DNA of 24,379 nucleotides from a virus, in IMG/VR virus record IMGVR_UViG_3300025131_004421, positions 1 to 24,379 of that record; one strand, written 5' to 3'. Position numbers and translations under genes: made by a program. This document shows, piece by piece, positions 50 to 22,373 of this stretch (the first letter of the stretch is position 1; each line of letters begins with the position of its first letter). The notes under the pieces were generated by a model. The model ran no database searches. It saw only the letters and a list, made by a program, of their open reading frames with translations, and was not told the DNA's origin.

Positions 50-286
50 CTATTGATCAAGATTCATTCTCCCTGCACAATCTCTGACCCACGACATGGA
101 GCAGAGGTAGCCAAAGAAGAATCCACTGATGAAGGTCACGACCTGACCCCAAGATATTGTCCAGTCATTTAAGTAGAACGAGAGAACGGACGCCATTACC
201 CACATCCAAGCGTTGCCATTCTTGATATTGATGATTTTGGCATACACAGTATCCGACATCCACAGTCGAGTCTCATTCTTGGACAT
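50..286 (-). CDS. Small membrane protein, 78 aa, two predicted TM segments
   Basis: I do not recognise a family. Residues about 26-43 (WMWVMASVLSFYL region) and 46-64 (GQVVTFISGFFFGYLCSMSW) form two hydrophobic stretches split by a short polar turn (NDWTISW), suggesting a two-pass membrane hairpin. The short N-terminus is polar. The ATG at 286 is supported by GAGGAGAG about 8 bases upstream. It overlaps the end of the glycosyltransferase gene by 14 bases, so it is probably cotranscribed with the sugar cassette. A small two-TM phage protein could be a holin or a membrane anchor for glycosyltransferases. The endolysin is 5.7 kb away on the other strand, so the lysis assignment is weak. Confidence 0.7.
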   Translation of the reverse strand: MSKNETRLWMSDTVYAKIINIKNGNAWMWVMASVLSFYLNDWTISWGQVVTFISGFFFGYLCSMSWVRDCAGRMNLDQ

Positions 287-1070
287 CTCTGGACTCTCCT
301 CGCACCAAATGGTAGCTCAATGAGCTTGGAACCTGTAAGGCTGGAATTCCATTATCGGAGAGCTTGTCCATGTAACTCACATCCCCGGTGACCCCTTCCT
401 CGTTGATTCCATCATGGAGAGGGCCGAACTCTTCCCACAGAGCCTTCGTCTGAAGCCATGTAACGCCGTCTGGGCGCAGTTGCTTGCCTCGGGCAGGGTG
501 AGAGTGGTAGAGACTCGCTTCGACGGCTGTGAGGGCCTTCTGGTTCGCATGGCGTCTCTGTATGTCATTGCAGTACTGGTCCCACCGTCGTTCATCGAAT
601 TCATCCCACACTGTGCCAAAATGCTCGATAGGATGCCGGGACCGTCCAGCCGCAGGAGATTCCACTGTCCATGTATGATATGTATGCCTCTCGCCCCACC
701 TGTCAGCCGCAGCCATGAGATGGTGGAGCCATTGTCTGGAGAAGTATTGATCCGACCCCATCCTGACAACCCACTTCGTTTCTGCGTGTTGATATCCCAT
801 GTTGAAGCAAGCGTAGAGGTTGTGCAAGAAACGAGTCGTCTTGTCTGAAATCGTAGCTGGTTGCTTCTCAGGATGAATCACGTATTTCAGATTCATCTCT
901 GGAAAGGCTTCCTGAACTTCCTTGCAGTAACCCTCAGTCTTCTTGTTGGCTCCTGCCAGAATGATCAGCCAATCTACATCCACGCCGGCCCGTCTATGCG
1001 CATTGATAATGCACCAGTTGAGCAGTTCGATGTCATCCTTGATGATGGTATACGCCGTGATGTCACTCAT
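273..1070 (-). CDS. GT-A-like (GT2-type) glycosyltransferase, 265 aa
   Basis: Probable nucleotide-sugar-dependent glycosyltransferase. The N-terminus (MSDITAYTIIKDDIELLNWCI) matches the opening strand and helix of a GT-A fold. Residues about 97-115 (ETKWVVRMGSDQYFSRQW) look like the central metal/donor-binding segment, with GSDQ where GT2 enzymes carry DxD. The ORF starts at ATG 1070 and overlaps the end of the nucleotidyltransferase gene by 8 bases; the upstream GGGGA is a weak ribosome binding site, so translational coupling is likely. It lacks membrane segments and should be cytoplasmic. Family assignment rests on fold-like motifs; acceptor and sugar are unknown. Confidence 0.65.
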   Translation of the reverse strand: MSDITAYTIIKDDIELLNWCIINAHRRAGVDVDWLIILAGANKKTEGYCKEVQEAFPEMNLKYVIHPEKQPATISDKTTRFLHNLYACFNMGYQHAETKWVVRMGSDQYFSRQWLHHLMAAADRWGERHTYHTWTVESPAAGRSRHPIEHFGTVWDEFDERRWDQYCNDIQRRHANQKALTAVEASLYHSHPARGKQLRPDGVTWLQTKALWEEFGPLHDGINEEGVTGDVSYMDKLSDNGIPALQVPSSLSYHLVRGESRDVQE

Positions 1071-1806
1071 TGAAAATCCCCGAATCTATAGTGGCAACCA
1101 TTTCTTCTGGTGTCCCCATGCTGAACACCTTCTTAACTGGAAATCCCTTCACCTTATGTCCTCGCGTAATCATCTTGTTATATGCCGACTCGACATAGAT
1201 CTCATTTTGAACAAGATCCTCTTCAGTCATATCTGCCAGAGCAGAGAAGTAGAAGTTGGCGTCGGAGAAATAGCTGCACCCACATAATGCATAGGGAAAA
1301 TCCAGCGAAGACCTCTTGGGTTTAATTCCACGCAACTCCCAGTTGGTGCCTTGTTCAGGTATAGCGAAGCCCCAGTCATCCTTCTCGGTGGTCATCCAGA
1401 GAGGGACGATACCATCAGCACTCTCTGAGTCTATCGCTTTGACAAACTCTTCCTTGTCCCAAGACAAGAATTGATCGGAGTGATGAATCAAAAGCTGTGG
1501 ATCTTCATGGGGAATGTGATGTCGTGCCAACTGGACGCAGTGAGCTACGCCCGTAGGCTCTGTCTCTTCCAGAAACAATCCATGAGGATAATTCTGAAGC
1601 CCTGCCTGACGATACATCTCCGATGCCTGAGCAGCCTCACCCTTGGCGCAGATGAAGATCACCAAACGAATCTGATCCAGAGGAAGACACGATAGAGATC
1701 GGATAAACATCGGCAAACCGTTGATCAGAATGAGAGGCTTGCTCACTTCTGTATAGCTACGAAAGCGAGTGCCATACCCACCCATGGGCATTACGACGGT
1801 AAGCAT
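1063..1806 (-). CDS. Sugar nucleotidyltransferase, 247 aa
   Basis: Belongs to the NTP_transferase superfamily that makes NDP-sugars from NTP and sugar-1-phosphate. The N-terminal signature VVMPMGGYGTRFRSYTEVSKP (residues 4-24) has the glycine-rich nucleotide loop, the catalytic Arg and the conserved KP. HHSDQF at about 107-112 replaces the usual G-D metal site. FPVKKVFSMGTPEEM near the C-terminus resembles the usual end of the fold, where a sequence such as W-x-D-(I/V)-G-T-P-E is common. The length is right for a single-domain enzyme without an acyltransferase tail. The ATG at 1806 has GAGGATGAG upstream and overlaps the Nudix stop. Next to glycosyltransferases it probably supplies their activated donor; the sugar cannot be read from sequence. 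Confidence 0.85.
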   Translation of the reverse strand: MLTVVMPMGGYGTRFRSYTEVSKPLILINGLPMFIRSLSCLPLDQIRLVIFICAKGEAAQASEMYRQAGLQNYPHGLFLEETEPTGVAHCVQLARHHIPHEDPQLLIHHSDQFLSWDKEEFVKAIDSESADGIVPLWMTTEKDDWGFAIPEQGTNWELRGIKPKRSSLDFPYALCGCSYFSDANFYFSALADMTEEDLVQNEIYVESAYNKMITRGHKVKGFPVKKVFSMGTPEEMVATIDSGIFNE

Positions 1807-2243
1807 CTTCTCATCCTCTGGAATATGTCGAGATGTTCTGGTGCCACATCATGCATTTTGCCAGTAACCTCTGAACGGATCTGCCCACTCAGAACATCAT
1901 CCACGGTGACCCATTTTAATTCTACACCTTCACGACATTCGAAAGTCACAAATTGATCTGGGTAGGGCCTGAGCCTGAAGACAGTAGTTATCGTATTGAT
2001 GCCAGCATAGTGAAAATTGAGCAATGGTTCTAATTGATCGGGGCTTACTGCCTGTGCAGTCTCTTCCCAAATCTCTCTGACCAAAGCTTCAACAAGAGTC
2101 TCGTCGCCATCTGCTTGGCCCCCCGGCATCGACCACATGTCAGGATTCCAGATCCAATCTTTATCATCTCTTAAATTAGCAAGAACCATCTTGTCTTTGA
2201 TGATAATGACTGTAACGCTCTGTCGGCCAACGAAGGCTGTCAT
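1791..2243 (-). CDS. Nudix hydrolase, 150 aa
   Basis: A full Nudix box is visible: GQADGDE, then seven residues, then REIWEET. This fits G-x5-E-x7-REUxEE-x-G-U, except that Ala takes the last Gly. It is preceded by MWSMPGG, the usual strand before the box. Family members hydrolyse nucleoside diphosphates linked to another group, including NDP-sugars. I placed the start at ATG 2243 because it forms an ATGA overlap with the methyltransferase stop and has GGAGGTC 6 bases upstream; a longer in-frame start at 2300 would overlap 60 bases. In this cassette it may recycle an NDP-sugar, act as a GDP-mannose hydrolase-like enzyme, or cleanse nucleotides. Confidence 0.88.
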   Translation of the reverse strand: MTAFVGRQSVTVIIIKDKMVLANLRDDKDWIWNPDMWSMPGGQADGDETLVEALVREIWEETAQAVSPDQLEPLLNFHYAGINTITTVFRLRPYPDQFVTFECREGVELKWVTVDDVLSGQIRSEVTGKMHDVAPEHLDIFQRMRRCLPS

Positions 2244-2710
2244 TTGACGACCTCCAATTGGTAATACTGATCTCCATTGCCAGTAGCGTCGTATCGACAC
2301 TCAGTCACTTTGAACTCGCCTCTGATGCTATACATCGGTCCACGCTCGATGATATACTCGCCGTCCTTCTTCTCCCACATCTGGAATGACCACTGATCCC
2401 AATCTGTCTTCTTATGGGTGTAATCCTTCCCCCCGTTCGGAGAATCTTTATTGGGCACGAAGATGTCTACACTTCCACCCTTCTTGGTGACTCTCCAGAT
2501 CTCCTCCATGATGAAGATGAGGTCTTCGCCATTGAAGTGTTCAAGGATTTGCTTTGCCAGCACTCCATGAAAGTAACTGTCATCAAAGGGAATCCCTCGG
2601 GTGATGCTCCTGACAATATCCACGCCTACGAAGGGGTGATGATCCATACCGATGTAACCGGGGGCCTTGTTGGGTCCACAACCTATATCCAGAAGCCTCA
2701 TCTTAGCCAT
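2240..2710 (-). CDS. Class I SAM-dependent methyltransferase, 156 aa
   Basis: Motif I is LLDIGCGPNKAPG (residues 6-18), motif II contains GMDHH and VDIVR, and the acidic/post-II segment IPFDDSYFHGVLAKQILEH is typical of Methyltransf_11-type enzymes. WRVTKKGGSVDIFVPN is the strand-5 region. The fold is short but complete through strand 5. The start at ATG 2710 overlaps the preceding glycosyltransferase stop by 8 bases (ATGGCTAA); ATG 2701 is possible. No strong Shine-Dalgarno is present, so expression is probably coupled. By context it could methylate a sugar or a nucleotide-sugar, but the substrate is not visible. Confidence 0.85.
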   Translation of the reverse strand: MAKMRLLDIGCGPNKAPGYIGMDHHPFVGVDIVRSITRGIPFDDSYFHGVLAKQILEHFNGEDLIFIMEEIWRVTKKGGSVDIFVPNKDSPNGGKDYTHKKTDWDQWSFQMWEKKDGEYIIERGPMYSIRGEFKVTECRYDATGNGDQYYQLEVVK

Positions 2711-3632
2711 TGGTTAAATTCTTTGAAAACATCTCGGCAATACCAGCCGCATGATGCAGATAGCTCATCGTGTTGACCTGATCTCTCATACGTGCCTTAT
2801 GGCGGATCTTGCTTTCCATCAATTCACAACATGCATCTACGTCGCCAGCAGGGAACAATTCTACGCCATGGCGATAATCATCCATCCACCCTACTCTAGC
2901 CGAGATTACAGGCTTACCTAAATAAAGAGCCTCTAGAGGAGCCATAGGTCCACCTTCCCATAAAGAAGGGACTAACAGGCAATCGATCTTGTCGTAGAAG
3001 TCTCTATAGCTTCTGTAGTCCTCTCCTTCATGGATCTCTGCTTTAGGAACCATGAAATCGTCTGGATTCCATCCCTCTCCTTTGAACAGAAGAGCCATGT
3101 TCCAAGTCTCTTCTTTGACTAATCCAGTAATAACCTCCTGCAAGAAGCCGTTCCCTTTGCCGATAATAGGATTACCATCTGGGTCTGATCCACGTTGTGC
3201 GATTCCAAACGTATATGGAATCGGCTCACCAAGATCAACCTCAAAATCTCCCCCCGGCTTGGATACGATCATCTGTTCTGGATGATAGGTTTTATTCTGG
3301 AGGAACATGTCATGATAGTAGGAATTCATATGCACGACGCCATCAAGGTCAGCCCAGTGCGCCCTGAAGTTATCCCAACTGTCCTCATGAAGGTGGGTGA
3401 ACATCCCGATGTGGGGGACGTCGGGAAAGGCAGTTCTCATCGAAGGGAACCAACAGTTTTGGATATCCACGTAATACCAACCGGAGAACGATTCTGCCTC
3501 CTTGTGCGTGAGATTAATCAACTGACTGACAGGAATACTCTGGAACACATCAGGGAGAGCAGCGCAAACACGCTCTCCGATGTGCTGAAGAATCCAGCCT
3601 GAGTCAACATGAATTACACCGATCTTACCCAT
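2703..3632 (-). CDS. GT4-like (GT-B) glycosyltransferase, 309 aa
   Basis: The C-terminal half carries the GT4 signature LLVPSLWEGGPMAPLEALYLGKPVI, with the E-x7-E motif (EGGPMAPLE) that binds the donor sugar nucleotide. It is preceded by a Rossmann-type strand and followed by ARVGW and an ELFPAGD segment, where GT4 enzymes usually have a V-x-P-G-D-like motif. The N-terminus (MGKIGVIHVDSGWILQHIGERVC) fits the acceptor domain of a GT-B fold. At 309 residues it is shorter than typical GT4 enzymes (350-400), so the N-domain looks reduced. The start ATG 3632 overlaps the upstream zinc-knuckle gene by 8 bases. AAGGAAA lies about 12 bases upstream, a long spacing. Confidence 0.85.
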   Translation of the reverse strand: MGKIGVIHVDSGWILQHIGERVCAALPDVFQSIPVSQLINLTHKEAESFSGWYYVDIQNCWFPSMRTAFPDVPHIGMFTHLHEDSWDNFRAHWADLDGVVHMNSYYHDMFLQNKTYHPEQMIVSKPGGDFEVDLGEPIPYTFGIAQRGSDPDGNPIIGKGNGFLQEVITGLVKEETWNMALLFKGEGWNPDDFMVPKAEIHEGEDYRSYRDFYDKIDCLLVPSLWEGGPMAPLEALYLGKPVISARVGWMDDYRHGVELFPAGDVDACCELMESKIRHKARMRDQVNTMSYLHHAAGIAEMFSKNLTNG

Positions 3633-3852
3633 TGTCGGTATCTGTTTCCTTGATCGGACGCTCCATCATGAAGCCTTTTAGCTGGTCTTCATACTCAGCA
3701 TTACGAAGCACATCAAACTTCGTTTGATTCTCCTGCTTCAGCTTCGAATGATCCAGTTCGCAGTTGAAGCACAGGTCGAAGCGAGTGCCATCTGGCTTCT
3801 TATAGGATTCTAGGTCATGCACAACTGACTCACATCGATCACAGACCTTCAT
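3625..3852 (-). CDS. Small zinc-knuckle protein, 75 aa
   Basis: Two CxxC pairs, C4-x2-C7 and C28-x2-C31, spaced as in a zinc ribbon or knuckle, are followed by a charged helical C-terminus (KLKQENQTKFDVLRNAEYEDQL). I do not recognise a named family. The start at ATG 3852 has GGAGGAGATGGA directly upstream and forms an ATGA overlap with the previous gene's stop. It sits among glycosyltransferases and may be an accessory or DNA/RNA-binding protein. No function is claimed. Confidence 0.75.
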   Translation of the reverse strand: MKVCDRCESVVHDLESYKKPDGTRFDLCFNCELDHSKLKQENQTKFDVLRNAEYEDQLKGFMMERPIKETDTDNG

Positions 3853-4157
3853 TCCATCTCCTCCATGTCGCCATCTACATGTTCAGCCTGTCGAATATGC
3901 CAATGCATATGATCGGGCCAGTGCTGTGTCTTTCGGTCAATCGTGAAGTGATAATTCGGATACGCCACCGACGCTACATATGAGCATCGGTCGATTACTT
4001 CTTGAAGCTCTTTCTTTGTGAAGTCCTCTTCTCTTTTATGACTATGCACAACCACCATAGGCACTTTACACTTGCCGCAGCGAGTGATCAAGAAGAGACG
4101 CTCCTTGACGTAGATCTTCGCCTTGGCTGGAGGGGGTTTACAAATCGGGCACCCCAT
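3849..4157 (-). CDS. HIT-like protein with N-terminal zinc-ribbon cysteines, 102 aa
   Basis: The protein opens MGCPIC and has a second pair CGKC near residue 30, giving a likely zinc site. It then runs through MVVVHSHKREEDFTKKELQEVIDRC to a His-rich end, DHMHWHIRQ. The H-x-H-x-H pattern (HMHWH) resembles the HIT triad of nucleotide hydrolases and transferases, and the preceding VVVHSH-x-EE-FT-x-E layout also fits HIT-like proteins. A HIT-type enzyme would suit a cassette that handles nucleotide sugars (GalT belongs to this superfamily). I chose ATG 4157, with GGAAGGAAA upstream and a 20-base overlap. ATG 4187, with CAGGAG upstream, is the alternative and adds 10 residues. The HIT assignment is motif-level only. 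Confidence 0.6.
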   Translation of the reverse strand: MGCPICKPPPAKAKIYVKERLFLITRCGKCKVPMVVVHSHKREEDFTKKELQEVIDRCSYVASVAYPNYHFTIDRKTQHWPDHMHWHIRQAEHVDGDMEEME

Positions 4158-4983
4158 TTTCCTTCCGATATGCTTCGTAGGTGTCATAGTCTCCTGCTCT
4201 TCCCGGTAGAATGATTTTTGGTTTCCTACCCTTGCCGGTGGGACGACAGAACTCTGGGAACCACTCCTTCTTTGCTGTCTCCAGAACCATACCTTTCTCC
4301 GTGACCAGCCTGTCAAGTGGATACCCTGTCTGTCCATGCCTCTTGTAGGTATAGAACTTCTGGAGAATTCGCTCTGTACTAGCGAATCCATAATGGAGCA
4401 ATTGCTGGTCCTCCTCTTGAAAGCGAATCGCTCCTACGCGAATATCTTGGTCAGCACTCTCACGCCGATATGGAATAGGCATCTGCTTCTGGTGTAGCCC
4501 ACCGCGTGGATCATAGTAAAGCTGTCCGGTGTTCATCCAGAAGACGCAATGCCACAGGTCGTTGTATTCAAGGTCGGTGCGATAATACTTCTCACTACGC
4601 CAGAGATTCAGATTATGAAGATAGATCTGCACAAGATTATTCTTCTTCACTTCTGCCAGCGCGTCGTTGACTTGTTCTCTGTCTGTAAAAAACTCTCCAA
4701 GAACAGCATCGGAATCAAACCAGCAGATCCAATTACATTTAGGATGATCGCCCAGCAACCTTCTCAGCAGAAGGTCTTTGTGATGGATCTCCAGATTGAA
4801 TTCATTGGTGCGACCTTTGATGACGACACAGTCGAAATCCTGATAGACTGGCATGACATCTTCAGTCGAGGCGTCATCATAGACGTAAATCTCATCGGAT
4901 ACCATACGCATTGACGTGAGACACTTACGTAGGTCGCCATTCTCGACTCCGTTAAAGTTTTGGAGAAATCCGATGATGTTCAT
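4138..4983 (-). CDS. GT2-like glycosyltransferase, 281 aa
   Basis: GT-A fold motifs are visible. DEIYVYDDASTEDVM (residues about 30-44) is the nucleotide-binding strand with DDAST in place of DDGST, and ICWFDSDAVLGEF (about 86-98) holds the DxD metal site. The central part is rich in aromatic residues. The C-terminal YRKENGVPDL tail is polar, with no membrane span. The start ATG 4983 overlaps the next upstream GT2 gene by 4 bases (ATGA). The ribosome binding site is weak (AAGAAAG), so coupling is likely. A cytoplasmic glycosyltransferase is well supported; donor and acceptor are unknown. Confidence 0.8.
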   Translation of the reverse strand: MNIIGFLQNFNGVENGDLRKCLTSMRMVSDEIYVYDDASTEDVMPVYQDFDCVVIKGRTNEFNLEIHHKDLLLRRLLGDHPKCNWICWFDSDAVLGEFFTDREQVNDALAEVKKNNLVQIYLHNLNLWRSEKYYRTDLEYNDLWHCVFWMNTGQLYYDPRGGLHQKQMPIPYRRESADQDIRVGAIRFQEEDQQLLHYGFASTERILQKFYTYKRHGQTGYPLDRLVTEKGMVLETAKKEWFPEFCRPTGKGRKPKIILPGRAGDYDTYEAYRKENGVPDL

Positions 4984-5759
4984 AGTTGTTCTTTCTTACC
5001 ATGAGGTATCCAGACATGCCCACCGGCTCCATAGCGTTCCATCAGATATGCCATGTCAGCTTCTTTCTTCAGACGCTCTTCCTCAGTCTTCAGCGTATTC
5101 AACATCTGGCCTTGATGAACACGACGCCTCACCAATGGCTCTGCCACGGCTGAGAAATTGAATCGCTCCGCACAGCGTAATAGGAATTCGTAATCCTGCG
5201 CATGGACGATGTTCATATCGAAACCACCTACCTCATCGAAGATCTTGCGATGCCACATGACTGTTGCAGCATTGATGAAGCAGTGCTGGCGCAGATTGTC
5301 AAATAGCTTTTCTCTAGAAGGATACTGTGCTGCGGCGTGGGTCTCCATGCACTGAGGTATCCCAAGCTCAAAAGATGTATAGGAGATCATATGATCGCCC
5401 ATCTCCTGAAGCTGGAATGCCACCTTGTCCTGCATATAGAGATCATCAGAAGGAAGCCATGTGATCCAGTCGCCTTCAGATAGCCCGATAGCCGTGTTCA
5501 GTGCCCCGGCGACTCCTTGATTCTCTTGCCAGTGGTAGGTCCATTCTCTGGTTCCCACTCTCGGGACTGGACAATCCTTCTGACAACGCTCTACGACATC
5601 CTCCTGAGAAGGAGTCGAGCCGTCATCAACGACAACAATCTGGATATCGGGCCAGCTTTGGAAGTAGGCAGACTTGATAGCTGCTTCCAGAAATGTTGGT
5701 TTCTGATTATAGGTAGGAATGATGATCGAAACCAGATCAGATGAATGCACTGCCGTCAC
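4980..5759 (-). CDS. GT2 family glycosyltransferase, 259 aa, GTG start
   Basis: A canonical GT2 protein. VSIIIPTYNQ near the N-terminus, VVVDDGST about 30 residues on, WITWLPSDDLYM (DxD-equivalent SDD) and FDMNIVHAQDYEFLLR (the acceptor-side ED-like motif) are all present. The frame is open to an ATG at 5837. I prefer the GTG at 5759, because AAGGAG lies 8 bases upstream, the conserved fold starts right after it, and it gives a GTGA overlap with the stop of the 50-residue regulator. The longer version would overlap that regulator by 82 bases. Second gene of the regulator-led leftward sugar operon. Confidence 0.85.
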   Translation of the reverse strand: MTAVHSSDLVSIIIPTYNQKPTFLEAAIKSAYFQSWPDIQIVVVDDGSTPSQEDVVERCQKDCPVPRVGTREWTYHWQENQGVAGALNTAIGLSEGDWITWLPSDDLYMQDKVAFQLQEMGDHMISYTSFELGIPQCMETHAAAQYPSREKLFDNLRQHCFINAATVMWHRKIFDEVGGFDMNIVHAQDYEFLLRCAERFNFSAVAEPLVRRRVHQGQMLNTLKTEEERLKKEADMAYLMERYGAGGHVWIPHGKKEQL

Positions 5760-5908
5760 AATCCTTTCTCCTTGCGAAGTTTCTTCTTCTCTGCGCCGAT
5801 TAGCTTGCTCAACATCGCTGCCATACTCATCTTGCAAGCAGCAGCAATGATCTTGAGATCACGATGATCGTCAGCCCAGATTTTCATCGTTCTAAAGGTC
5901 TTGCTCAT
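5756..5908 (-). CDS. Ribbon-helix-helix-like small regulator, 50 aa
   Basis: A short ORF reading MSKTFRTMKIWADDHRDLKI, then IAAACKMSMAAMLSKLIGAE and a Lys-rich tail (KKKLRKEKGL). It has the layout of an Arc/CopG-type ribbon-helix-helix domain: a short basic beta strand (FRTMKIW), helix 1 (DDHRDLKIIAAAC), a turn with KMSM, and helix 2 (AAMLSKLIG). It ends in a GTGA overlap with the GT2 gene and is the first gene of the leftward operon. A strong promoter lies 33 bases upstream, and that promoter region carries a tandem/palindromic site that such a dimeric protein could bind. Its own ribosome binding site is weak. RHH assignment is by pattern, not by search. Confidence 0.7.
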   Translation of the reverse strand: MSKTFRTMKIWADDHRDLKIIAAACKMSMAAMLSKLIGAEKKKLRKEKGL

Positions 5909-5917
5909 TTAGTCATC

Positions 5918-5944
5918 CATGTAGTAAATTGGCTACATGTAGTA
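5918..5944. promoter_or_regulatory. Candidate operator: 9-base direct repeats plus 10-base palindrome
   Basis: CATGTAGTA occurs twice, at 5918-5926 and 5936-5944, exactly 18 bases apart. The second copy overlaps the perfect palindrome CTACATGTAG (5933-5942), and the pair 5919-5924/5933-5938 also forms an inverted repeat. The block covers the -10 and start region of the leftward promoter and lies upstream of the endolysin gene. RHH repressors bind short tandem or inverted sites of this size, so autoregulation by the adjacent regulator is a reasonable inference. Confidence 0.5.
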
Positions 5945-5969
5945 TAACCACACTCAAAGGAGGCGTCAA
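5941..5969 (-). promoter_or_regulatory. Sigma-70-type promoter for the leftward sugar operon
   Basis: On the minus strand there is TTGACG (-35, at 5964-5969), a 17-base spacer, and TATACT (-10, at 5941-5946), each with five of six consensus bases. Transcription would start near 5934, about 26 bases before the regulator's ATG. The -10 overlaps the palindromic operator candidate, and the spacer overlaps the endolysin ribosome binding site on the other strand. Confidence 0.65.
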
Positions 5970-5970
5970 C

Positions 5971-6627
5971 GTGGAAATAGTCCAATGTCATACTCCCAAC
6001 AAGTCTCTCAAGAAGAGACTCCGAACGAACATCACCTTGGGCGTTGTGCATTATACTGGCTCAATGAATTTCGATGGAACGCTTAACTGGTTCGAGAATC
6101 CGAAAGCGAAGGTCTCGGCCCACTACGTCATCGGCAGAGAGGGCACAGTTGCTCAATTTGAAACCATCTACACAAAACTTTGGCATGCAGGTAAGAGTGA
6201 GTGGAATGGACGCAAGTGGTGCAACGGCTACTCCATTGGCTATGAGCTTGTTGGTACTTCTGACTCTGGATTCACTCAAGAGCAATACGATGCGTTATGT
6301 GAAGTCATCATGGACAACATGACTAACTGTCCTCTCTCAGCTATTGTCGGCCATGAGCATATCAGCCCCGGCAGGAAGGTTGATCCCGGCGAGGGGTTCA
6401 ACTGGAACAAGATAGCTGCACCCCTCGCTATCGAAATCAACAAGCACACATTCACTGGCAACAAGCTTGCCCAAATAGGTCCGAAACGACTCAAACCTGT
6501 GCCCCTTGCTGTCAATGAGAGTGGTAGAGAGCTGGATGTTCCTGAACCCATGGTCACCTCGACTTCCACCGAAGTACGAAACCCCAAGATGGGCAATGGC
6601 AAAGATCCATGGTGGAAGATCTGGTAA
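5971..6627 (+). CDS. N-acetylmuramoyl-L-alanine amidase endolysin, 218 aa, GTG start
   Basis: Amidase_2 (PGRP/T7 lysozyme-like) enzyme that cleaves the MurNAc-L-Ala bond of peptidoglycan at lysis. Motifs, numbered from the GTG: VVHYT with zinc ligand H27, AHYVIGREG (50-58), WHAGKS (71-76), SIGYEL (88-93), and GHEHISPGRKVDPG (127-140) with ligands H130 and D138 plus the conserved Lys. The tail after about 155 has no recognised wall-binding repeat. I chose GTG 5971 because AAAGGAGG lies 7 bases upstream; an upstream TTG (5929) lacks a site. No signal peptide is visible, so export would need a holin. It is the only rightward gene in the sugar region, and its stop abuts the convergent gene with no gap. 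Confidence 0.93.
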   Translation: MEIVQCHTPNKSLKKRLRTNITLGVVHYTGSMNFDGTLNWFENPKAKVSAHYVIGREGTVAQFETIYTKLWHAGKSEWNGRKWCNGYSIGYELVGTSDSGFTQEQYDALCEVIMDNMTNCPLSAIVGHEHISPGRKVDPGEGFNWNKIAAPLAIEINKHTFTGNKLAQIGPKRLKPVPLAVNESGRELDVPEPMVTSTSTEVRNPKMGNGKDPWWKIW

Positions 6628-8817
6628 TCAATAGGAGAACATCTCTGACATGACAGGCATCGACAGTTTGGTCTCTGGCATCCGGTTGTACTCTCGACGC
6701 CTGTTGAAACCGCGCTTCCACTCAAACATGTACTGCACCAACTGGTCAGTCTGGGACATCACAAGCTCGATGGAATTATTCTGCACGACGTGATCCCTGT
6801 AGGCACCTGAATCGTAAGGCCCCTCCAGAAGCTCTCTAAGGCCCCCTGAATGCGTGAACGTCTCAGGCCACATCACACCCTGCCTATCGTAGAGAAGAGG
6901 CTTGATGCCCTTGCACATGGCTTCTGCGACGGAATAGCCGAACGATTCCACGATGGATGTGGAGATGATATAATCCTTATCCTCCAGCCATTCGTTTTTA
7001 CGGTCGTCATCAACCCATCCATACCACCAGACATTCGGCAACGATTCACAGGCATGTTGCCACCAGTATGCCAGATGGTTCCCTTGAAATCGACCGGCGA
7101 TATGGAACTCGTAATCGGGATGAGTCTTAGCGCACTCCATGAGCAGAGGGATGTTCTTCTTCTCATTGAGATAGCCAAGGTATGCGATCTTCTTTCCTCG
7201 ACCGTGTTCCCTGAAACTGAAGCGATCGGTCTGGACACCATTAGGGATCACTGACAGGTCAACGCGCTCTGTTTGTTCAGGCCAACGACTGATGAACAGG
7301 TCACGAATGTGATCAGCGACGAACACCAAGTGGTCGATGTTATCCCAGTTCACATTCCCCGGCACATCACCGAAGGCTTCATAGGAATGGAGTCTGCACA
7401 CAACTGGAACATCCCACTCACGAATGCTGACATCCTGTAGATTCGCATCGGCCCATTCGACCCACACGAAGTCAGCCCACTGTTGCCAGCGCGTCTCCAG
7501 TGTCTTCCTGACGGAGACATGATAGTTTTGCACCATCCATTGAGAGAGTGGGCCAGTAAAGCTGCCAATGTGATCGAGAATCAGGAAGTTCTCTCGATGA
7601 GTCTTAGAGATCTCTGTCTTGATCTGATCCTTGAATGCTTCTCGCTTGGCGATGATCGATCCATCATTAGGTCGCCATCCCAAGGCTTCCCCGGCGGATC
7701 GCATTGCAGAATGCCAATCCTTCAAATTCTCGTAGCACTTCATCTTCAGGATGATCGGCATGTAGGTATAGGCTGACCCCTGACAGAACATGACCGTGAA
7801 CGGAGCCTTGACGTTGTCAGCGATCTTGAGCCAGTGGATGCACTCTTCCCATTGACCGTCAGCGAATGCGATCTCTGCCAGAAGGATATAGGGTTCGCGC
7901 CGACGCCAGTTGACTTGCATTGCCAGAAGGAGATACTCCTTCGCCTTGGCCTTGTTACCTGTATGACGAAGATGAAGTAGGCCCAACTGTTGGAGAGCTT
8001 GGTACTTCTCTTCTCCAAATGCAGGGTTCATCTTCATATATCGTTCGTACCACCAGATCGCTTTCTTCGGCTCCCCCATGTCGGCATAGGAATTGCCCAT
8101 GTAGAAGTAGGGTCTGGTGTTCTTCTTATCCTTCTTGATGTCGTTTTTCAGGCCGGTGAGATTCATGCGTTTGCGCTGGAGCTTACGCCTCTTCTCACGC
8201 TGCGGTGGCATGTTGTGGATCAGGATGACTTCTGGACAACCTACGGCCTTCTTGGAATCGTAGCCTTCCAGATGATTGTGTACCTTCGCCTTGTAGTTGA
8301 TCTTGCCGTTGTTACGGAATAATCTTGGCTGAAGGAAGAACAAGGAAGGGATGGCATCCTCGCCCACGTTCATGCAGACATTGAAACAGGCTACATCGAA
8401 ATTCTCGTCGAAGCCTTTATCCAGAATCTGTTCAAGATAGCTGACCGATGTGAGGATCTGTCGTTCAGAAGGATCAAGGTGATAGATCCCTGCCATACTA
8501 TCTTCAAGAGGATGTCCTTCTGGACATAGAAACTCATGACCGTCAAGGATCAGAATCAATGAGCCATTGGCTCTCTTGATCGCTTTGTTGCGTGTGCCAG
8601 CGAAGTCATCGTTGAAATCGAATTCGAAGTAGTCGGTGGCATACTTCTTAGCAATCTCTGGGGTGTCGTCAGTGCACTTGCGATCTACCCCGATGATTAT
8701 CTCATCCACGAGGTTCTCAACACTCTTGATGGCATTCTCCAGCGTCTCAGCCTCATCGTGGACGACCATGCAGAGAGAGATGCTCTCCCTCGACATAGGT
8801 CGCTCTACTTCAGTCAT
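6628..8817 (-). CDS. Trimodular GT2-TPR-GT4 glycosyltransferase, 729 aa
   Basis: Three modules are visible. Residues 13-205 are GT2: SLCMVVHDEAETLENAI, a nucleotide-binding strand IIGVDRKCTDDT, and ILDGHE (91-95) at the metal site. Residues about 235-395 hold four TPR-like helical pairs, the clearest being YFYMGNSYADMGEPKKAIWW. Residues about 410-725 are a GT-B/GT4 domain: VIPNGVQTDRF (523-533), KIAYLGYLNEKKNIPLL (543-559), HIAGRFQ, and ESFGYSVAE (624-632), the E-x7-E donor motif. Two catalytic domains on a TPR scaffold suggest that one protein adds two sugars or builds a repeat. GGAGAGAG precedes the ATG at 8817, and the leader contains a terminator-like hairpin. It ends flush against the convergent endolysin. 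Confidence 0.9.
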   Translation of the reverse strand: MTEVERPMSRESISLCMVVHDEAETLENAIKSVENLVDEIIIGVDRKCTDDTPEIAKKYATDYFEFDFNDDFAGTRNKAIKRANGSLILILDGHEFLCPEGHPLEDSMAGIYHLDPSERQILTSVSYLEQILDKGFDENFDVACFNVCMNVGEDAIPSLFFLQPRLFRNNGKINYKAKVHNHLEGYDSKKAVGCPEVILIHNMPPQREKRRKLQRKRMNLTGLKNDIKKDKKNTRPYFYMGNSYADMGEPKKAIWWYERYMKMNPAFGEEKYQALQQLGLLHLRHTGNKAKAKEYLLLAMQVNWRRREPYILLAEIAFADGQWEECIHWLKIADNVKAPFTVMFCQGSAYTYMPIILKMKCYENLKDWHSAMRSAGEALGWRPNDGSIIAKREAFKDQIKTEISKTHRENFLILDHIGSFTGPLSQWMVQNYHVSVRKTLETRWQQWADFVWVEWADANLQDVSIREWDVPVVCRLHSYEAFGDVPGNVNWDNIDHLVFVADHIRDLFISRWPEQTERVDLSVIPNGVQTDRFSFREHGRGKKIAYLGYLNEKKNIPLLMECAKTHPDYEFHIAGRFQGNHLAYWWQHACESLPNVWWYGWVDDDRKNEWLEDKDYIISTSIVESFGYSVAEAMCKGIKPLLYDRQGVMWPETFTHSGGLRELLEGPYDSGAYRDHVVQNNSIELVMSQTDQLVQYMFEWKRGFNRRREYNRMPETKLSMPVMSEMFSY

Positions 8818-8954: not shown

Positions 8955-9317
8955 CTACCTAATGCGCTGGACTCCGAGTGTCAAGTAGGGATTGGTGAGT
9001 GCCTTCCCATCCGAGTTCATGGAGATCACCATTCCAGAAGTGAACCCCAGAGAGTCTACGGGAAGATGAAAGATCGAACCATCGGCAGCACTGATCGCCA
9101 TAGCCAGTTTCGTATCCGTCGTGACATTGAATCCGACCGACGTAGCTGAGTTTATCAGACGTAGGGAGACATTGCCAGACTGGATATTGAGAAAGCCTGA
9201 AGTCAGAATGACGGAATCACCACGGCCAGCAGCCGTAGGACCACCAATCTTAACCAGATGGTTGTTATTCCCCGGCTTGATAAAAACCGGTTCAGATCGG
9301 CGTCGTTGCGAAGCCAT
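8955..9317 (-). CDS. Hypothetical virion-region protein, 120 aa
   Basis: I do not recognise the family. The sequence is Ser/Gly/Thr-rich with alternating hydrophobic residues (FLNIQSGNVSLRLINSATSVGFNVTT), suggesting a beta-sandwich, and has no membrane segment. It is the last gene of the leftward head block, starting at ATG 9317 with AAGGAA upstream and overlapping the previous stop. By position it could be a head decoration, fibre or completion protein. Confidence 0.7.
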   Translation of the reverse strand: MASQRRRSEPVFIKPGNNNHLVKIGGPTAAGRGDSVILTSGFLNIQSGNVSLRLINSATSVGFNVTTDTKLAMAISAADGSIFHLPVDSLGFTSGMVISMNSDGKALTNPYLTLGVQRIR

Positions 9318-9610
9318 TATGCCAGTTCCTTCTCGTCCTCTTCGATTTCGTCAGGATCGTCCAGACTTGGTACCTCATCAGTCAATTCGACTACCTCTTC
9401 GATATTCTCTTCGACTGTGACATCAACGGACGGGGCAGGAAGACCCTTTGCAAGATCCTCTGCCTCCGTCTCGTCAATGAATCGGCACCAAGTCTCTTGT
9501 GGACCCCACTGCGCAGCGTAAGTCCGAAGCAACCTTCTGGACCAGTCATGGACTGTTCCGATCTGGAGATTCGATTTCTTACCGACAGTTTTAGTCAACA
9601 CGAGAAACAT
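9317..9610 (-). CDS. Hypothetical protein with acidic C-terminus, 97 aa
   Basis: The N-terminal 55 residues look folded (MFLVLTKTVGKKSNLQIGTVHDWSRRLLRTY). The rest is strongly acidic (VEENIEEVVELTDEVPSLDDPDEIEEDEKELA) and probably disordered. It lies between two head-region genes, with AAAAGG upstream of ATG 9610. No family recognised; it may be a virion-associated or assembly accessory protein. Confidence 0.7.
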   Translation of the reverse strand: MFLVLTKTVGKKSNLQIGTVHDWSRRLLRTYAAQWGPQETWCRFIDETEAEDLAKGLPAPSVDVTVEENIEEVVELTDEVPSLDDPDEIEEDEKELA

Positions 9611-9630
9611 GGTGATTCGCCTTTTGGTTC

Positions 9631-10101
9631 CTACTCTTCGAACGCAGGATACCAGTTGGTATGGACGCTGAGATGATTCATCGTCTGGGGGGTACCAGAA
9701 ATCGCCAATTCAAGGAACAAACCGGCGCCAGCTTCCATAGTAGCATTACCGTTGTTGATATCTGACAACTCCTTGAACCCAGAGGCAGCAATAGTGACAC
9801 CACTGAGAGAAGCATTCTGCTTCAGGAGATCAACACCACGAGATTTATTTACAAGATTTAAGACCCATGTGTCGGCTTCATTGGCGTGGTGTCGCATTGC
9901 CGAAGAACCGAAGTTCACCGACACGGACTGAATCTTCGCGCCCCCCTCGGGGGCACGAAAGATACAGAAATCCACGGCTCCAGAAGCAACCTGTCCAACA
10001 TGGGCTGGGGTCGAGCGCCGACGAGCAGCCTTGTTCAAAGCGCCAGACTGCATCCCCTTACGCTGAAAAAATCCCCGAACATTACCCGTTTTGGTTGCCA
10101 T
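9631..10101 (-). CDS. Putative structural protein, 156 aa
   Basis: The N-terminus is basic (MATKTGNVRGFFQRKGMQSGALNKAARRR). It is followed by a beta-rich body (VDFCIFRAPEGGAKIQSVSVNFG, TWVLNLVNKSRG, GAGLFLELAISGTPQTMNHLSVHTNWYP) of the kind seen in virion surface or spike-like proteins. It directly follows the major capsid gene, starts at ATG 10101 with AAGGGGAAAG upstream, and probably encodes a capsid accessory or decoration protein. The family is not recognised. Confidence 0.65.
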   Translation of the reverse strand: MATKTGNVRGFFQRKGMQSGALNKAARRRSTPAHVGQVASGAVDFCIFRAPEGGAKIQSVSVNFGSSAMRHHANEADTWVLNLVNKSRGVDLLKQNASLSGVTIAASGFKELSDINNGNATMEAGAGLFLELAISGTPQTMNHLSVHTNWYPAFEE

Positions 10102-10114
10102 CTCTTCTTTCCCC

Positions 10115-11047
10115 TTAGTCTACGATGCCAGAGAAGAAGTAGCCCAGATCAGAGGCAGTGAGCTTCATGTCAAGGTCTACATTGGCCTCGACAACGTCCT
10201 GCTCTTCAGCTTCCTCGCGATAGGTCTTCGTTGACACACCCTGCCAATTAAAAGTGTAACCGGCAGACGGAGTGTCGATGGAAGGACTGTTCGTGACACC
10301 AGCGAGGAGGACGTTCTTACCCCAGATGAAGGACATCGAGGTCGTCTGGCCTTCCTGTGCGCTGTTGTAGACCGCATCGCCCACGAGAACCGTGGGGATA
10401 TCCAGCCACGCCGCAACCTGTGCTTCCGTGAGGATGCCAGTCTGCGTGTGCTTGTAACGGTCGATAGCGTCGGGATGCTGCTTGAGGGCAGACATCACCT
10501 CGTGGCCCATCACCAGAATGTTGGGCTTCATGCCCGTGTTCTGGAGAATCGTGTCCACGCCATCGGAGATATCCTTTGCAGGATCGCCGTTGGCATAATC
10601 ATCCCACTTGTCTGCACCCACGCCACCAACAACGTCGGTGTCCCATTTGCCAGTCGCGAAAATGTCTGTTACCAGACGACGTTCGCGCCGAATGTTGATC
10701 TGCTCCATGACGTGGGAGGCCGCGTTCTCAAACGGACGAACAACGTCGTCGGCATTGTCCACGATCATATCTGGAACGCCCTGTCCGAAGCTGATGCGCT
10801 TACACGCATACGGCTCGGTTGTGACATTCCAGCCACCACGCGGTGCACGAGTTCCCGGCTGGCGATCATTCGCAGCCTCGTCACGGAAGCGATCACCCTT
10901 GGTGAACTTGAAATACACGTCACTCTTATGAGCAACATTCACCGAAGGAAATACGCGCTCTGCGATGTACAGTGAATTCTCGTATCCAATTGCAACGTCT
11001 TGGATAGCTGCGTTCACATGTGCATCGGCATTTTTGGGTTCAGGCAT
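10115..11047 (-). CDS. Major capsid protein, HK97-fold type, 310 aa
   Basis: The N-terminal segment GYENSLYIAERVFPSVNVAHKSDVYFKF, then GDRFRDEAANDRQPGT, GGWNVTTEPYACKR and an N-arm/E-loop-like region match a common phage capsid family (YIADRVFP / KSD-Y / FRDEA pattern). The middle ILVMGHEVMSALKQHPDAIDRYKHT and SMSFIWGKNVLLAG fit the P- and A-domain core. The position directly after protease/scaffold and decoration genes is standard. AGGGGACATA precedes ATG 11047. The length is usual for this group, and no N-terminal delta domain longer than about 20 residues is evident, consistent with a separate scaffold. Confidence 0.88.
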   Translation of the reverse strand: MPEPKNADAHVNAAIQDVAIGYENSLYIAERVFPSVNVAHKSDVYFKFTKGDRFRDEAANDRQPGTRAPRGGWNVTTEPYACKRISFGQGVPDMIVDNADDVVRPFENAASHVMEQINIRRERRLVTDIFATGKWDTDVVGGVGADKWDDYANGDPAKDISDGVDTILQNTGMKPNILVMGHEVMSALKQHPDAIDRYKHTQTGILTEAQVAAWLDIPTVLVGDAVYNSAQEGQTTSMSFIWGKNVLLAGVTNSPSIDTPSAGYTFNWQGVSTKTYREEAEEQDVVEANVDLDMKLTASDLGYFFSGIVD

Positions 11048-11062
11048 TATGTCCCCTATACC

Positions 11063-11440
11063 TTATGTGGCAGCTTGGGTCTGTTCCAGAAGCACGGAGA
11101 TGACATCAGAAGAAACGCCATCCTCCAGAGCTTGGGCACCGTACTTGGCATTACCCACGCCAAGAACGCCATTACCATTGGCGTCAGCCTTGACCTGATT
11201 TCCTGCCTTGACGGTTCCACCAAGACGAAGTTTCGATACTCCGATGAGCCTGATACTCAGACCCTCGGTTTTCTTTGCCGTAGACTGGGTGATACCCAGA
11301 ATACGGTCACCGGCAGCAGCAGCCACGACCTGTGGCGACGTGTTCCCCATCTTGGCGAAGATGAACTGGTCGCTATTAGCAGACAGTCCATTTCCAGAGA
11401 CAGCGAACGTCAGGTCGAGAATGCCATTTTCAGCAGCCAT
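11063..11440 (-). CDS. Capsid decoration (cement) protein, DUF2190-like, 125 aa
   Basis: Compact beta-barrel-like sequence with the pattern LRLGGTVKAGNQVKADANGNGV followed by AQALEDGVSSDVISVLL. This is characteristic of DUF2190 capsid cement proteins encoded beside major capsid genes. These proteins sit on the capsid surface and stabilise it. The ATG at 11440 has AAGGAG 7 bases upstream, and that site overlaps the TAA of the protease gene (TAAGGAG). Assignment rests on pattern and on its place between protease/scaffold and major capsid. Confidence 0.8.
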   Translation of the reverse strand: MAAENGILDLTFAVSGNGLSANSDQFIFAKMGNTSPQVVAAAAGDRILGITQSTAKKTEGLSIRLIGVSKLRLGGTVKAGNQVKADANGNGVLGVGNAKYGAQALEDGVSSDVISVLLEQTQAAT

Positions 11441-13321: not shown

Positions 13322-13603
13322 ATGGAGATCACACGGACGAAAGGAGAGATCGAGGACATGCTTCGGCGTGTCACATTCCAGATCGACTCGACACCAGACT
13401 GCACTCTGTTTGGCGAATACCAATTTGAAGAACTGGGATTGATGAAGGCGCACAAGCAAATTCTCTTGGGTGCCTTGGGAGAGGTTCCATTCTGGAAACC
13501 TCCAGTGCTGTTTGAACAAACCTGTTGGGCATGGCTGTGTGGGGAGTCATGGGACAAGTATCCAGAACTGATAAAGGAGGATGGCGTATGGCATACGATA
13601 TGA
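13322..13603 (+). CDS. Hypothetical protein, 93 aa
   Basis: First gene of the rightward island; no family recognised. It is soluble and compact (FGEYQFEELGLMKAHKQILLGALG, then a Trp/Cys-rich WAWLCGESWDKYPELIKEDGVW end). ATG 13322 has GAGAGGG 7 bases upstream, directly after the leader. Its 3' end overlaps the methyltransferase start by 16 bases. Being first behind a strong early promoter suggests a regulatory or host-interaction role, but nothing in the sequence shows it. Confidence 0.75.
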   Translation: MEITRTKGEIEDMLRRVTFQIDSTPDCTLFGEYQFEELGLMKAHKQILLGALGEVPFWKPPVLFEQTCWAWLCGESWDKYPELIKEDGVWHTI

Positions 13604-14742
13604 TCCACTGCGACGCTCTACATGTCGCAGACCATCTTGTAGAGGGAGCCGTCCACTGCGTGGTAACCAGCCCCCCTTACTGGAGCCTGAGAGACTACGG
13701 GGTTCCTCCCACCGAATGGCCCGATGGGACCAAGTGCTGCTTGGGTCTGGAGGAAACTCCCGACAAATTCATCGAACATCTGTGCGATGTTTTTGACAGT
13801 GTGAAAAAAGTCCTGCGTGACGACGGCACACTCTGGATCAATCTCGGAGACACGTTCGCCGGGGGTGGTGGCATTACCGGAGTGCCTGAGAACTGGGAAT
13901 CTCTCAGCATGTCGAATCGAGAGAAGTATCCAGAAAACGCCCCATCGAGAGACAACAAGAGGTTCGGCCTGAAGAAGAAGGATCTGATCCTCACACCGTT
14001 CAGGTTGGCAACTGAACTCCAGAAGCGTGGCTTATATCTACGTCAAGTGATCATCTGGGAGAAACCCAACCCTGCCAGAGAATCGGTCACCGACCGTCCT
14101 ACCACTTCACACGAATATATCTTCCTCATGTCGAAGAAGCCTCAATATTACTATGACATGGAAGCCATCCGTACGGAGTCAGGAGCAAATTGTGGATCAG
14201 TCTGGAAAATCACCGTCACAAATTACAAGGGTGCGCACTTCGCGACATTCCCTCCAGACCTCGTTGAGAGATGCATTAGAGCAGGTACGTCGGAGAAAGG
14301 GGCCTGTGTGGAATGCGGTGCGCCGTATGTCCGACTTATTGAAAAAGGAGAAGCCGATGACGAGTGGAAAAAAAAGTCTGGAGCCGACAGTGATGGAGAA
14401 TACCGGGGTCAAGCTACAAAAGATTATGAGTTTGGAGGAGCAGAGAATCCGTCAGACGTTAAACGACGAATACTGGCAGGAATGGTTACGCGAACAACTA
14501 TTGGTTGGGAACGCTCCTGCGCTTGCAAAGACCGTGATCCCGAAGGAAGCGCAACACCAATTAACCACGTTCCTTGCACAGTTCTTGATCCGTTTTCTGG
14601 AGCTGGAACGACCGCATTGGTTGCTGACCGTCTCGGAAGAGATGCCATCGGAACCGACCTGAAGGAAGAGTATATCCAGATGGCAGACAATCGCGTCTAC
14701 GATGACGCCCCACTGTTTCATCAACCACACCTCAAGGAGTAA
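13588..14742 (+). CDS. Site-specific DNA methyltransferase, beta class (N4-C or N6-A), 384 aa
   Basis: Motif IV TSPPYWSLRDYG (residues 27-38) precedes motif I/FxGxG VLDPFSGAGTTALVADRLGR near the C-terminus, followed by AIGTDLKEEYIQMADNR. That order defines the beta group of amino-methyltransferases. A Cys-rich insert (GACVECGAPYVRL, then RSCACKDRD) looks like the zinc-binding element common in phage members. The start is ATG 13588, with AAAGGAGG 7 bases upstream; the frame extends to 13525 without a better site. No restriction gene is adjacent, so it is probably an orphan enzyme protecting phage DNA or modulating promoters. The recognition site cannot be read. Confidence 0.93.
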   Translation: MAYDMIHCDALHVADHLVEGAVHCVVTSPPYWSLRDYGVPPTEWPDGTKCCLGLEETPDKFIEHLCDVFDSVKKVLRDDGTLWINLGDTFAGGGGITGVPENWESLSMSNREKYPENAPSRDNKRFGLKKKDLILTPFRLATELQKRGLYLRQVIIWEKPNPARESVTDRPTTSHEYIFLMSKKPQYYYDMEAIRTESGANCGSVWKITVTNYKGAHFATFPPDLVERCIRAGTSEKGACVECGAPYVRLIEKGEADDEWKKKSGADSDGEYRGQATKDYEFGGAENPSDVKRRILAGMVTRTTIGWERSCACKDRDPEGSATPINHVPCTVLDPFSGAGTTALVADRLGRDAIGTDLKEEYIQMADNRVYDDAPLFHQPHLKE

Positions 14743-14752
14743 TGGCAAGAGA

Positions 14753-15298
14753 ATGAGCAATAATCTAATCTGGGGCATCGACCCCGGCACAACAAAAAGT
14801 GCATTGTGCATCTTCGACGTGGATCAAAATAAGGCTGTGTTTTCCGAGACATTTCTCAACGAGGAACTGGCAAAAGTCTTGGAGTCGAACTATGAACATG
14901 TATCACACAATGAGATCCACCACTTCAGGACAGACAAGATGAGTGCAATGGTTTCTGGCCCTGCTGATCTTGCAATCGAACAGGTTGTCTTCTATGGCAG
15001 AACCGTAGGCGAGACCACTTTCACCACAGTCTTCTGGTCTGGACGATTTGCTCAGGCATGGGGCAGACCGTACGCCTATTTCCCGTTCAGAGAGGTAGGA
15101 CGAGAGATCTGCGGCCTTGCCAGTGGCATCAAGGAGCCTGAGGTACGCCAAGCTCTCATAGACCGGTTCGGACCTGAAAAGAGGACTGCAATCGGCCTGA
15201 AGGCGTCTCCCGGCCCCCTGTACAACGTCAAGGGGCATGAGTGGTCTGCGCTTGGGATAGCCGTCGCCCACGCTATACGAGAAGGACTCATGAAATGA
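14753..15298 (+). CDS. RuvC-like Holliday junction resolvase, 181 aa
   Basis: RNase H-fold nuclease. WGIDPGTTKSALCI carries catalytic D10, LAIEQVVFYG carries E76, and GHEWSALGIAVAHA is the C-terminal acidic helix, where bacterial RuvC has HxxDALA. It would cut four-way junctions or branched DNA before packaging. I chose ATG 14753 because the fold starts there; the only AAGGAG (14734-14739) is 13 bases upstream, beside a 4-codon ATG-GCA-AGA-GAA-TGA overlapping the methyltransferase stop. An earlier in-frame ATG at 14702 would overlap 41 bases. Part of the rightward operon, ending in an ATGA overlap with the LexA-like gene. Confidence 0.85.
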   Translation: MSNNLIWGIDPGTTKSALCIFDVDQNKAVFSETFLNEELAKVLESNYEHVSHNEIHHFRTDKMSAMVSGPADLAIEQVVFYGRTVGETTFTTVFWSGRFAQAWGRPYAYFPFREVGREICGLASGIKEPEVRQALIDRFGPEKRTAIGLKASPGPLYNVKGHEWSALGIAVAHAIREGLMK

Positions 15299-15729
15299 AG
15301 GAACCCCTCACCCAACGACAACTGGAGATCTACGCAGCTATCAGATACCATGTCATCACTCAAGGAGTCCCACCCACGATTCGCGAGATGATGACTGCTC
15401 TCCAGATCAAATCAACCAATGGAGTCAGAGCCGTCATTCAGGTCTTGATCAAGAAAGGATGGCTGACCTACCCGACCAAGGGAGCCGTGCGGGGCATACG
15501 CCTCATAGATGACGAATGGAAGCATGACTCAGAAAGTTTACGTCTCGTAGAAACAGTTCTGGCATGGTATATAAATGCTGACATACCCGACATCACCAGC
15601 AGGGAACGAGACGTGGCGCATGATGTCGGAGTATCCATCCGACAAGAGCTTGTCTATGCTACCAAGGCACAGACGGCTCTGGCAGATCGCAAGATGGCGA
15701 CCAAGCCATATACCCATAAGGAAGTATGA
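15295..15729 (+). CDS. LexA-type winged-helix DNA-binding protein without protease domain, 144 aa
   Basis: Residues 4-68 match the LexA N-terminal domain closely: LTQRQLEIYAAIRYHVITQG, PPTIREMMTALQI as the recognition helix region, and a wing ending KGAVRGIRLI (E. coli LexA has SGASRGIRLL). The C-terminal 70 residues are helical and lack the Ala-Gly cleavage site and Ser/Lys dyad of S24 peptidases, so RecA-stimulated self-cleavage is not expected. It probably represses or tunes phage or host genes. ATG 15295 overlaps the RuvC stop; GAAGGA is upstream. A LexA-like inverted repeat lies in its own operon leader. Confidence 0.85.
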   Translation: MKEPLTQRQLEIYAAIRYHVITQGVPPTIREMMTALQIKSTNGVRAVIQVLIKKGWLTYPTKGAVRGIRLIDDEWKHDSESLRLVETVLAWYINADIPDITSRERDVAHDVGVSIRQELVYATKAQTALADRKMATKPYTHKEV

Positions 15730-15920
15730 TGGCTACCATCTGGATGGTTCACGCAACAAGACGAATACGAAAGAAGGGTAAGACCCTTACAGTGAAGCAT
15801 GTCGAGCCACGAGTTATTGCACCCACCAAAGAACTGGCAGAAGAACAGATACGGCATTTTCTGGCAGACTCCACAGATTACAAGTGGACTATTCAAGGTA
15901 CCGTAAAGGAGAGTGGATGA
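15726..15920 (+). CDS. Hypothetical small basic protein, 64 aa
   Basis: MVHATRRIRKKGKTLTVKHVEPRVIAPTKELAEEQIRHFL suggests a beta strand, a basic turn and one amphipathic helix, followed by YKWTIQGTVKESG. No family recognised. Two adjacent ATGs (15726, 15729) are possible starts: the first gives an ATGA overlap with the previous stop, the second is better spaced from AAGGAA (15718-15723). It is coupled in turn to the phosphoesterase by an ATGATGA junction. Confidence 0.7.
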   Translation: MMATIWMVHATRRIRKKGKTLTVKHVEPRVIAPTKELAEEQIRHFLADSTDYKWTIQGTVKESG

Positions 15921-22326: not shown

Positions 22327-22373
22327 CCTTGCAAGGATGGGGCCTGAGAATTATTCCCGTGAGAGTAGGCCCC
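22327..22373 (-). other. RBS palindrome and intergenic hairpin
   Basis: TCCTTGCAAGGA (22327-22338) is a perfect 12-base palindrome that includes the ribosome binding site of the 58-residue gene. Just upstream on the minus strand, GGGGCCT/AGGCCCC (22339-22345 with 22367-22373) forms a 7-base stem right at the stop of the ParB-DUF4417 gene. No T tract follows, so termination is unlikely. An mRNA processing or translation-control element fits better. Confidence 0.45.

Follow-up and report, generated by a model that had tools for sequence, protein, structure and literature searches.

The tailed phage from which the record IMGVR_UViG_3300025131_004421 stems probably encodes a cytoplasmic protein-glycosylation island, the most likely function of which is to decorate a virion protein of the head or tail. 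The window analysed here is this entire IMG/VR record of 24,379 bases, and its phage genes include those of a Mu-type portal, a Mu-like protease, a major head protein (phrog_1005, 10115-11047), a scaffold/cement protein and a terminase. The island comprises a cassette of ten overlapping genes in one direction (273-5908, minus strand) and the gene of GT729, a two-headed glycosyltransferase of 729 amino acids (aa) (6628..8817, minus strand) that is located downstream of small head genes (8955-11440). The original prediction, which was made from the sequence alone, had described only the interval 273-5908 as a sugar operon, and while the genes therein are real, the interval is too short, as the GT729 gene belongs with the cassette and had been missed. 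The record ends at base 1, and therefore the island is probably truncated there.

The acceptor type is suggested by GT729, in which a GT2 domain of the GmaR/SunS type is joined to TPR repeats and a GT4 domain, as assigned by Pfam, PDB profile searches and an AlphaFold2 (AF2) model. When a profile of seven viral GT729 homologues was compared with the PDB, the best matches, to the N-terminal half, were Listeria GmaR (6e-24) and SunS (5e-20), and the similarity extends beyond the catalytic domain, including the segment RxFRxxGKIxxxxxVH. With the GT729 model (pLDDT 79.6; like the other predicted structures built from a shallow alignment), Foldseek ranked SunS/ThuS first for the N-terminal half, and VIA-align superimposed SunS on residues 1-317 (Z 24.1, 283 residues) and GT4 enzymes on residues 407-702 (Z up to 26). 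TPR matches of Pfam lie at 237-300, the model has helices at 205-403, and the GT4 half is complete with an intact E-x7-E motif (E624/E632). A genome-contig scan with GT729, for which only two peptide patterns were used, gave one weak match to the GT4 part and no cellular or prophage relative, and the search of 50,697 phage records yielded no full-length relative, only partial, GmaR-like matches in two fecal contigs and in records labelled as Listeria. Among the head-tail genes of more distant phages (L069:3296-8783, and L068), genes for GT4, methyltransferase and GT2 proteins are found, and counterparts of the two GT729 halves, GT4 and GT2, are encoded separately there.

All genes that the original prediction had named in the cassette are present on one strand, with overlaps of 4-20 bp. 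Read from 5908 to 273, the order is an RHH-like gene, the glycosyltransferases GT285 and GT281, a HIT-like gene, a Zn-ribbon gene, a GT4 glycosyltransferase (GT4_309), a methyltransferase (MTase), a Nudix hydrolase, an NTP-sugar nucleotidyltransferase (NTP) and GT265, followed by a 78-aa open reading frame (ORF). The overlaps are 4 bp for RHH/GT285, GT285/GT281, HIT/Zn and MTase/Nudix, 8 bp for Zn/GT4, GT4/MTase and NTP/GT265, 14 bp for GT265/78-aa ORF, 16 bp for Nudix/NTP and 20 bp for GT281/HIT. These values refer to corrected starts, as three ORFs were shortened (GT285 to GTG 5759, HIT to ATG 4157, Nudix to ATG 2243), and a purine-rich Shine-Dalgarno-like stretch precedes each of the three. 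Five genes are recognized above the Pfam cut-offs (NTP, Nudix, MTase, GT4 and GT285), GT265, GT281 and RHH stay below them, and the HIT-like protein has no Pfam match; the catalytic motifs are mostly intact across the cassette enzymes. The sister record G003 (IMGVR 3300035698_009495) could be compared for eight genes, namely GT729, GT285, GT281, HIT, Zn, GT4, MTase and RHH, with Nudix (cut off in G003), NTP and GT265 left out. Protein identities range from 39 to 70%, and in all eight cases nonsynonymous change is much rarer than synonymous change (pN 0.20-0.43 vs pS 0.71-0.91, quoted because dS reaches or approaches saturation between the two records). The eight are thus real genes under purifying selection.

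GT285 (4980..5759, on the minus strand like all cassette genes) is a GT2 enzyme (Glycos_transf_2, 9e-22) that matches chondroitin synthase in the PDB profile search (2e-23) and has its xSDD and QDYEF motifs unchanged in four of four aligned homologues. GT281 (4138..4983) is of the GT-A type with an invariant DSD and a GT34-like Pfam match (6.5e-4; GT2 weak); in the PDB, it weakly matches GmaR and xyloglucan xylosyltransferase, and it is kept in nine distinct records. GT4_309 (2703..3632; Glyco_trans_1_4, 1e-9) retains EGGPMxxxE (E-x7-E) in an alignment of seven homologues. GT265 (273..1070) represents a GT-A-like family with an invariant GSDQ and a below-cut-off GT2 match (3e-4); four relatives in its alignment are 48-55% identical, and its PDB search found no relative. 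GT281 and GT265 gave no match among the 50,697 phage records. The short class I, S-adenosylmethionine (SAM)-dependent MTase (2240..2710; Methyltransf_11, 3e-7) has an LDxGCG motif, and its relatives in an alignment of eight are 45-70% identical to the window copy, scan matches below about 40% identity (L098-L112) having been left out. NTP (1063..1806; NTP_transferase, 9e-12, 45.5 bits vs a cut-off of 21.2) has a GxGxR...KP signature that is invariant in the homologue alignment, and its best PDB relative in the profile search is the nucleoside-diphosphate-sugar pyrophosphorylase 4evw (2e-18). A scan with the single protein found no viral relatives, but alignment-based scans did find them, and there are homologues in the islands of G007, G012 and G018; the search of isolated phages yielded one fecal contig and otherwise just distant pyrophosphorylases of cyanophages. 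Donor synthesis, methylation and transfer, as originally proposed, are hence backed by family matches, motifs and conservation.

The smaller proteins are less clear in function. The Nudix hydrolase (1791..2243; NUDIX, 2e-12) has an intact box G-x5-E-x7-REUxEE, and the HIT-like protein (3849..4157) has CxxC motifs and an HxHxH that is present in both homologues, i.e. in the window and its sister. Its assignment comes from this alignment and from an AF2 model, the top seven PDB matches of which in Foldseek are all HIT proteins, with a best E of only 0.07 and probabilities up to 0.99. That these two proteins serve in "editing" is only a guess, but Nudix occurs beside GT265 and NTP also in a more distant island (L087). 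The Zn-ribbon-like protein of 75 aa (3625..3852) has a CxxC...CxxC pattern, a weak ZZ-type match (E=0.097) and a homologue in G003 (47%). The RHH-like protein of 50 aa (5756..5908), a possible regulator, is short, shows an RHH-like pattern only and fails the family cut-off (RHH_10, E=0.011, 16.4 bits vs 27); its gene is kept at the same place in G003, and it is only in the window and in this sister that the operon is RHH-led. The 78-aa ORF (50..286) has no family match and one borderline hydrophobic stretch with a hydropathy maximum right at the threshold. No membrane segment is predicted in the window cassette by the hydropathy rule, which is a rough test that flags a few island proteins in the relatives, some of them homologues of soluble enzymes.

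The island recurs in related viruses, all of which are represented by record fragments; as they were found by short peptide patterns, the numbers of relatives are lower bounds, and figures on gene order count records, not independent events. The core GT285-GT281-GT4-MTase-GT265 is present, whole or partially, in nine distinct and diverged records (the window, G001, G002, G003, G007, G012, G013/14, G015 and G016, with G013/14 counted as one virus owing to 99.9% identity). The window, G007 and G012 have all five genes, G001 lacks GT4, G013/14 and G015 lack GT265, and the ends of the records truncate the core in G002, G003 and G016; the records G015 and G016 begin inside the core. G003 has RHH, GT285, GT281, HIT, Zn, GT4, MTase and Nudix in the order of the window until its record ends, except that an HNH-like gene (recognized by eye, L057:3290-3787) and a small ORF interrupt the series between GT285 and GT281. 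A scan with the portal detected many distant phages, among them G001-G004 with GT729 and, in the case of G001-G003, also with the core. GT729 is found upstream of the core in five of the nine records, and its homologues follow head genes in G001, G002, G003 and G004, as in the window. The G007 homologue lies at the beginning of its record, and in G008 a homologue of 31% identity directly follows a different major head protein (phrog_1357 vs phrog_1005). The island is followed by a Phage_tail_S tail-completion block in G001, G007, G013/14, G015 and G016, and G017 and G018 have the same block after a variable donor part.

This variable part would, judging from its enzyme families, provide the sugar chemistry. 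It includes in the relatives an APH-family kinase, NTP transferases, NAD-dependent epimerase/dehydratases and Methyltransf_24/CmcI-like enzymes, to which longer islands add a WecB homologue, a KedN5-like B12 radical-SAM C-methyltransferase, a SPASM radical-SAM enzyme and a sulfotransferase-like gene. GT265 is paired with Nudix and NTP in G018, as it is in the window. A family of 230-250 aa without Pfam match (L055:10034-10759 and relatives) occurs in most longer islands, in G007 in several copies, and is an uncharacterised candidate for an island enzyme. Proteins of 237 aa without known family are encoded between GT281 and MTase or GT4 in G001 (L055:5078-5791) and G002 (L056:8070-8783), and one radical-SAM/SPASM gene of an island (L084:6015-8036) seems to hold an intein (Intein_splicing 2e-6, below cut-off).

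The joining of a GmaR/SunS-type domain to TPR suggests a protein as acceptor, the position among head and tail genes suggests that this is a virion protein, and the window cassette, for which no membrane segments are predicted, speaks against a lipid-linked route. Together with the absence of a base modifier of the thymidylate synthase family (see below), these features of the sequence favour a virion protein. We tentatively propose as one possible mechanism that the two-headed transferase encoded next to the capsid genes primes and extends the sugar on a virion protein, and that the soluble five-gene core of glycosyltransferases and MTase builds a methylated oligosaccharide with the help of an exchangeable donor module and without a lipid carrier. 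NTP would make the nucleotide sugar, assisted in the relatives by kinases and epimerases, the TPR region of GT729 would bind the acceptor, the GT2 domain would attach the first sugar, and the GT4 domain may add a second. GT285, GT281, GT4_309 and GT265 would then extend the chain directly on the protein in the cytoplasm before the MTase methylates it, and Nudix and HIT may act on nucleotide by-products by hydrolysis or recycling. Gene content, motifs, purifying selection on eight genes, conserved gene order, head/tail context and the homology of the GT729 N-terminus to protein glycosyltransferases are observed, whereas we infer which acceptor and sugar are used, in which order the steps occur and what Nudix, HIT, Zn and RHH do, as well as the on-protein extension and the subsequent methylation.

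Several aspects weigh against virion glycosylation by such an island. The DAD (DxD) of GmaR and SunS is DGH in seven of seven GT729 homologues (D92/H94 in GT729), and thus metal binding or even activity of the GT2 domain could differ; D-x-H is found in polypeptide GalNAc-transferases. GT729 is separated from the cassette in the window by an opposite-strand gene, which encodes an N-acetylmuramoyl-L-alanine amidase (5929-6627, plus strand). At this position, G003 has an unrelated opposite-strand gene (L057:4764-5300), and G002 has an amidase homologue that shares the strand of the island. No GT729 match was found in the fragment G012 and only a marginal one (6-7e-4) in the fragment G013/14, neither of the two gave a homologue of the window's capsid protein, and the core comes after replication-type genes in both. 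As far as these fragments show, GT729 and head adjacency are therefore not obligatory, and the link between GT729 and the core is not absolute. The conservation beside head genes, a survey of which had been suggested initially, hence holds for several records, but was not seen in these two fragments.

The core's position after replication-type genes in G012 and G013/14 would also suit a change of the host surface, i.e. a remodelling of O-antigen, teichoic acid or capsule by the glycosyltransferases and the MTase during infection, which would exclude superinfection or mask receptors. Phages often convert surfaces by Gtr-type systems, and GT285 is similar to TuaG and further GT2 enzymes of polysaccharides as well as to chondroitin synthase, but neither a GtrA flippase nor a membrane GtrB or a polymerase was seen, and the match to a GtrB PHROG in the window cassette reaches only 9e-4. 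As the cassette also has no predicted membrane segment, GT729 groups with protein glycosyltransferases, and genes placed late, among those of head and tail, would contribute little to a surface change early on, we regard this explanation as unlikely. A glycosylation of modified phage bases that permits an escape from restriction appears even less probable. Phages are known to have glycosyltransferases by which DNA bases receive diverse glycans (Pyle et al. 2024, cited in PMC12619734), and the window also encodes an N6/N4 DNA methylase. However, a thymidylate synthase/hydroxymethylase family member was not found in 12 related records, all fragments, with working controls, and GT729 matches protein and not DNA glycosyltransferases; a Tet/JBP search of the fragments gave no match, though its control gave none either. 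Least credible to us is the glycosylation of a small molecule or host protein, as in auxiliary metabolism or in a chemistry of immune signals or of ribosomally synthesized and post-translationally modified peptides (RiPPs). It would agree with the action of SunS/ThuS on peptides and with the relatives' radical-SAM enzymes of the SPASM and B12 types, which are similar to methylases of RiPPs and natural products, but the head/tail position is kept in several records, and no precursor peptide was noticed, albeit without a systematic search for one. DNA-base modification and lipid-linked O-antigen conversion thus suit the evidence less well than the glycosylation of a virion protein.

Upstream of the RHH gene, a promoter-like site (5969-5941, 10/12) and a 9-nt direct repeat, CATGTAGTA, a possible operator, are found on the minus strand (5913..5969). 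The repeat occurs twice, exact and 18 nt apart, it was not found in G003, and promoter-like matches are no commoner than by chance. A search for RNA families found none. Outside the island, an opposite-strand block between protease and portal (13525-16546, plus strand) encodes the N6/N4 DNA methylase, a RuvC-like protein (assigned by eye and by homology between records, without Pfam match), a LexA-like DNA-binding protein and a metallophosphatase; methylase and phosphatase are kept in G003, the RuvC-like protein more weakly. A ParB_N domain joined to DUF4417 (22373-23650, minus strand) has homologues in G003 and other loci of the portal scan, and a second SAM methyltransferase (23643-24329, minus strand) is encoded at the far record end.

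Among known systems, GmaR has the domain order GT2 then TPR, and acceptor binding has been proposed for its TPR (PMC9638930). This flagellin O-GlcNAc transferase and antirepressor of Listeria shares the order with GT729 and is homologous through the RxFRNxGxI..VH segment, but it has a C-terminal antirepressor where GT729 has a complete GT4, and DxD where the phage-encoded GT729, adjoining head genes, has DxH. In Foldseek, the N-terminal half best matched the peptide S-glycosyltransferases SunS (from the SPbeta prophage; VIA Z 24) and ThuS, but SunS stops after its helical repeats where GT729 continues into GT4, and the partner genes of GT729 look glycan-extending and not like RiPP genes. In the Caulobacter flagellin transferase FlmG, a TPR domain binds the flagellin acceptor (PMC7591256); like in GT729, TPR adjoins a GT-B glycosyltransferase, a likeness of domain layout, but FlmG has no N-terminal GT2.

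Glycans on phage virions are already known, as the mycobacteriophages Che8 and Rita carry them on their capsids, and the related Maravista encodes its own glycosyltransferases, although near the 3' genome end; the text of PMC11256854 on which these statements rest describes no donor-synthesis island. Among the 50,697 phage records, no mycobacteriophage matched GT729, GT281 or GT265, the three proteins searched. Other large phages have core glycosyltransferases without known target (PMC12619734), and chloroviruses, which are giant viruses, have virus-encoded glycosyltransferases and capsid glycans (PMC9614988), but their hosts are eukaryotic. What is new here are the cassette and the two-headed enzyme: while capsid glycosylation has been shown in few phages (Che8, Rita), diverse uncultured phages keep a near-complete pathway from donor to acceptor, often between head and tail genes, and the domain order of GT729 suggests how the acceptor is selected. 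If the proposed function is true, the island would allow glycosylated virions to be recognized from the genome and would offer a lipid-free set of soluble enzymes for putting oligosaccharides on proteins.

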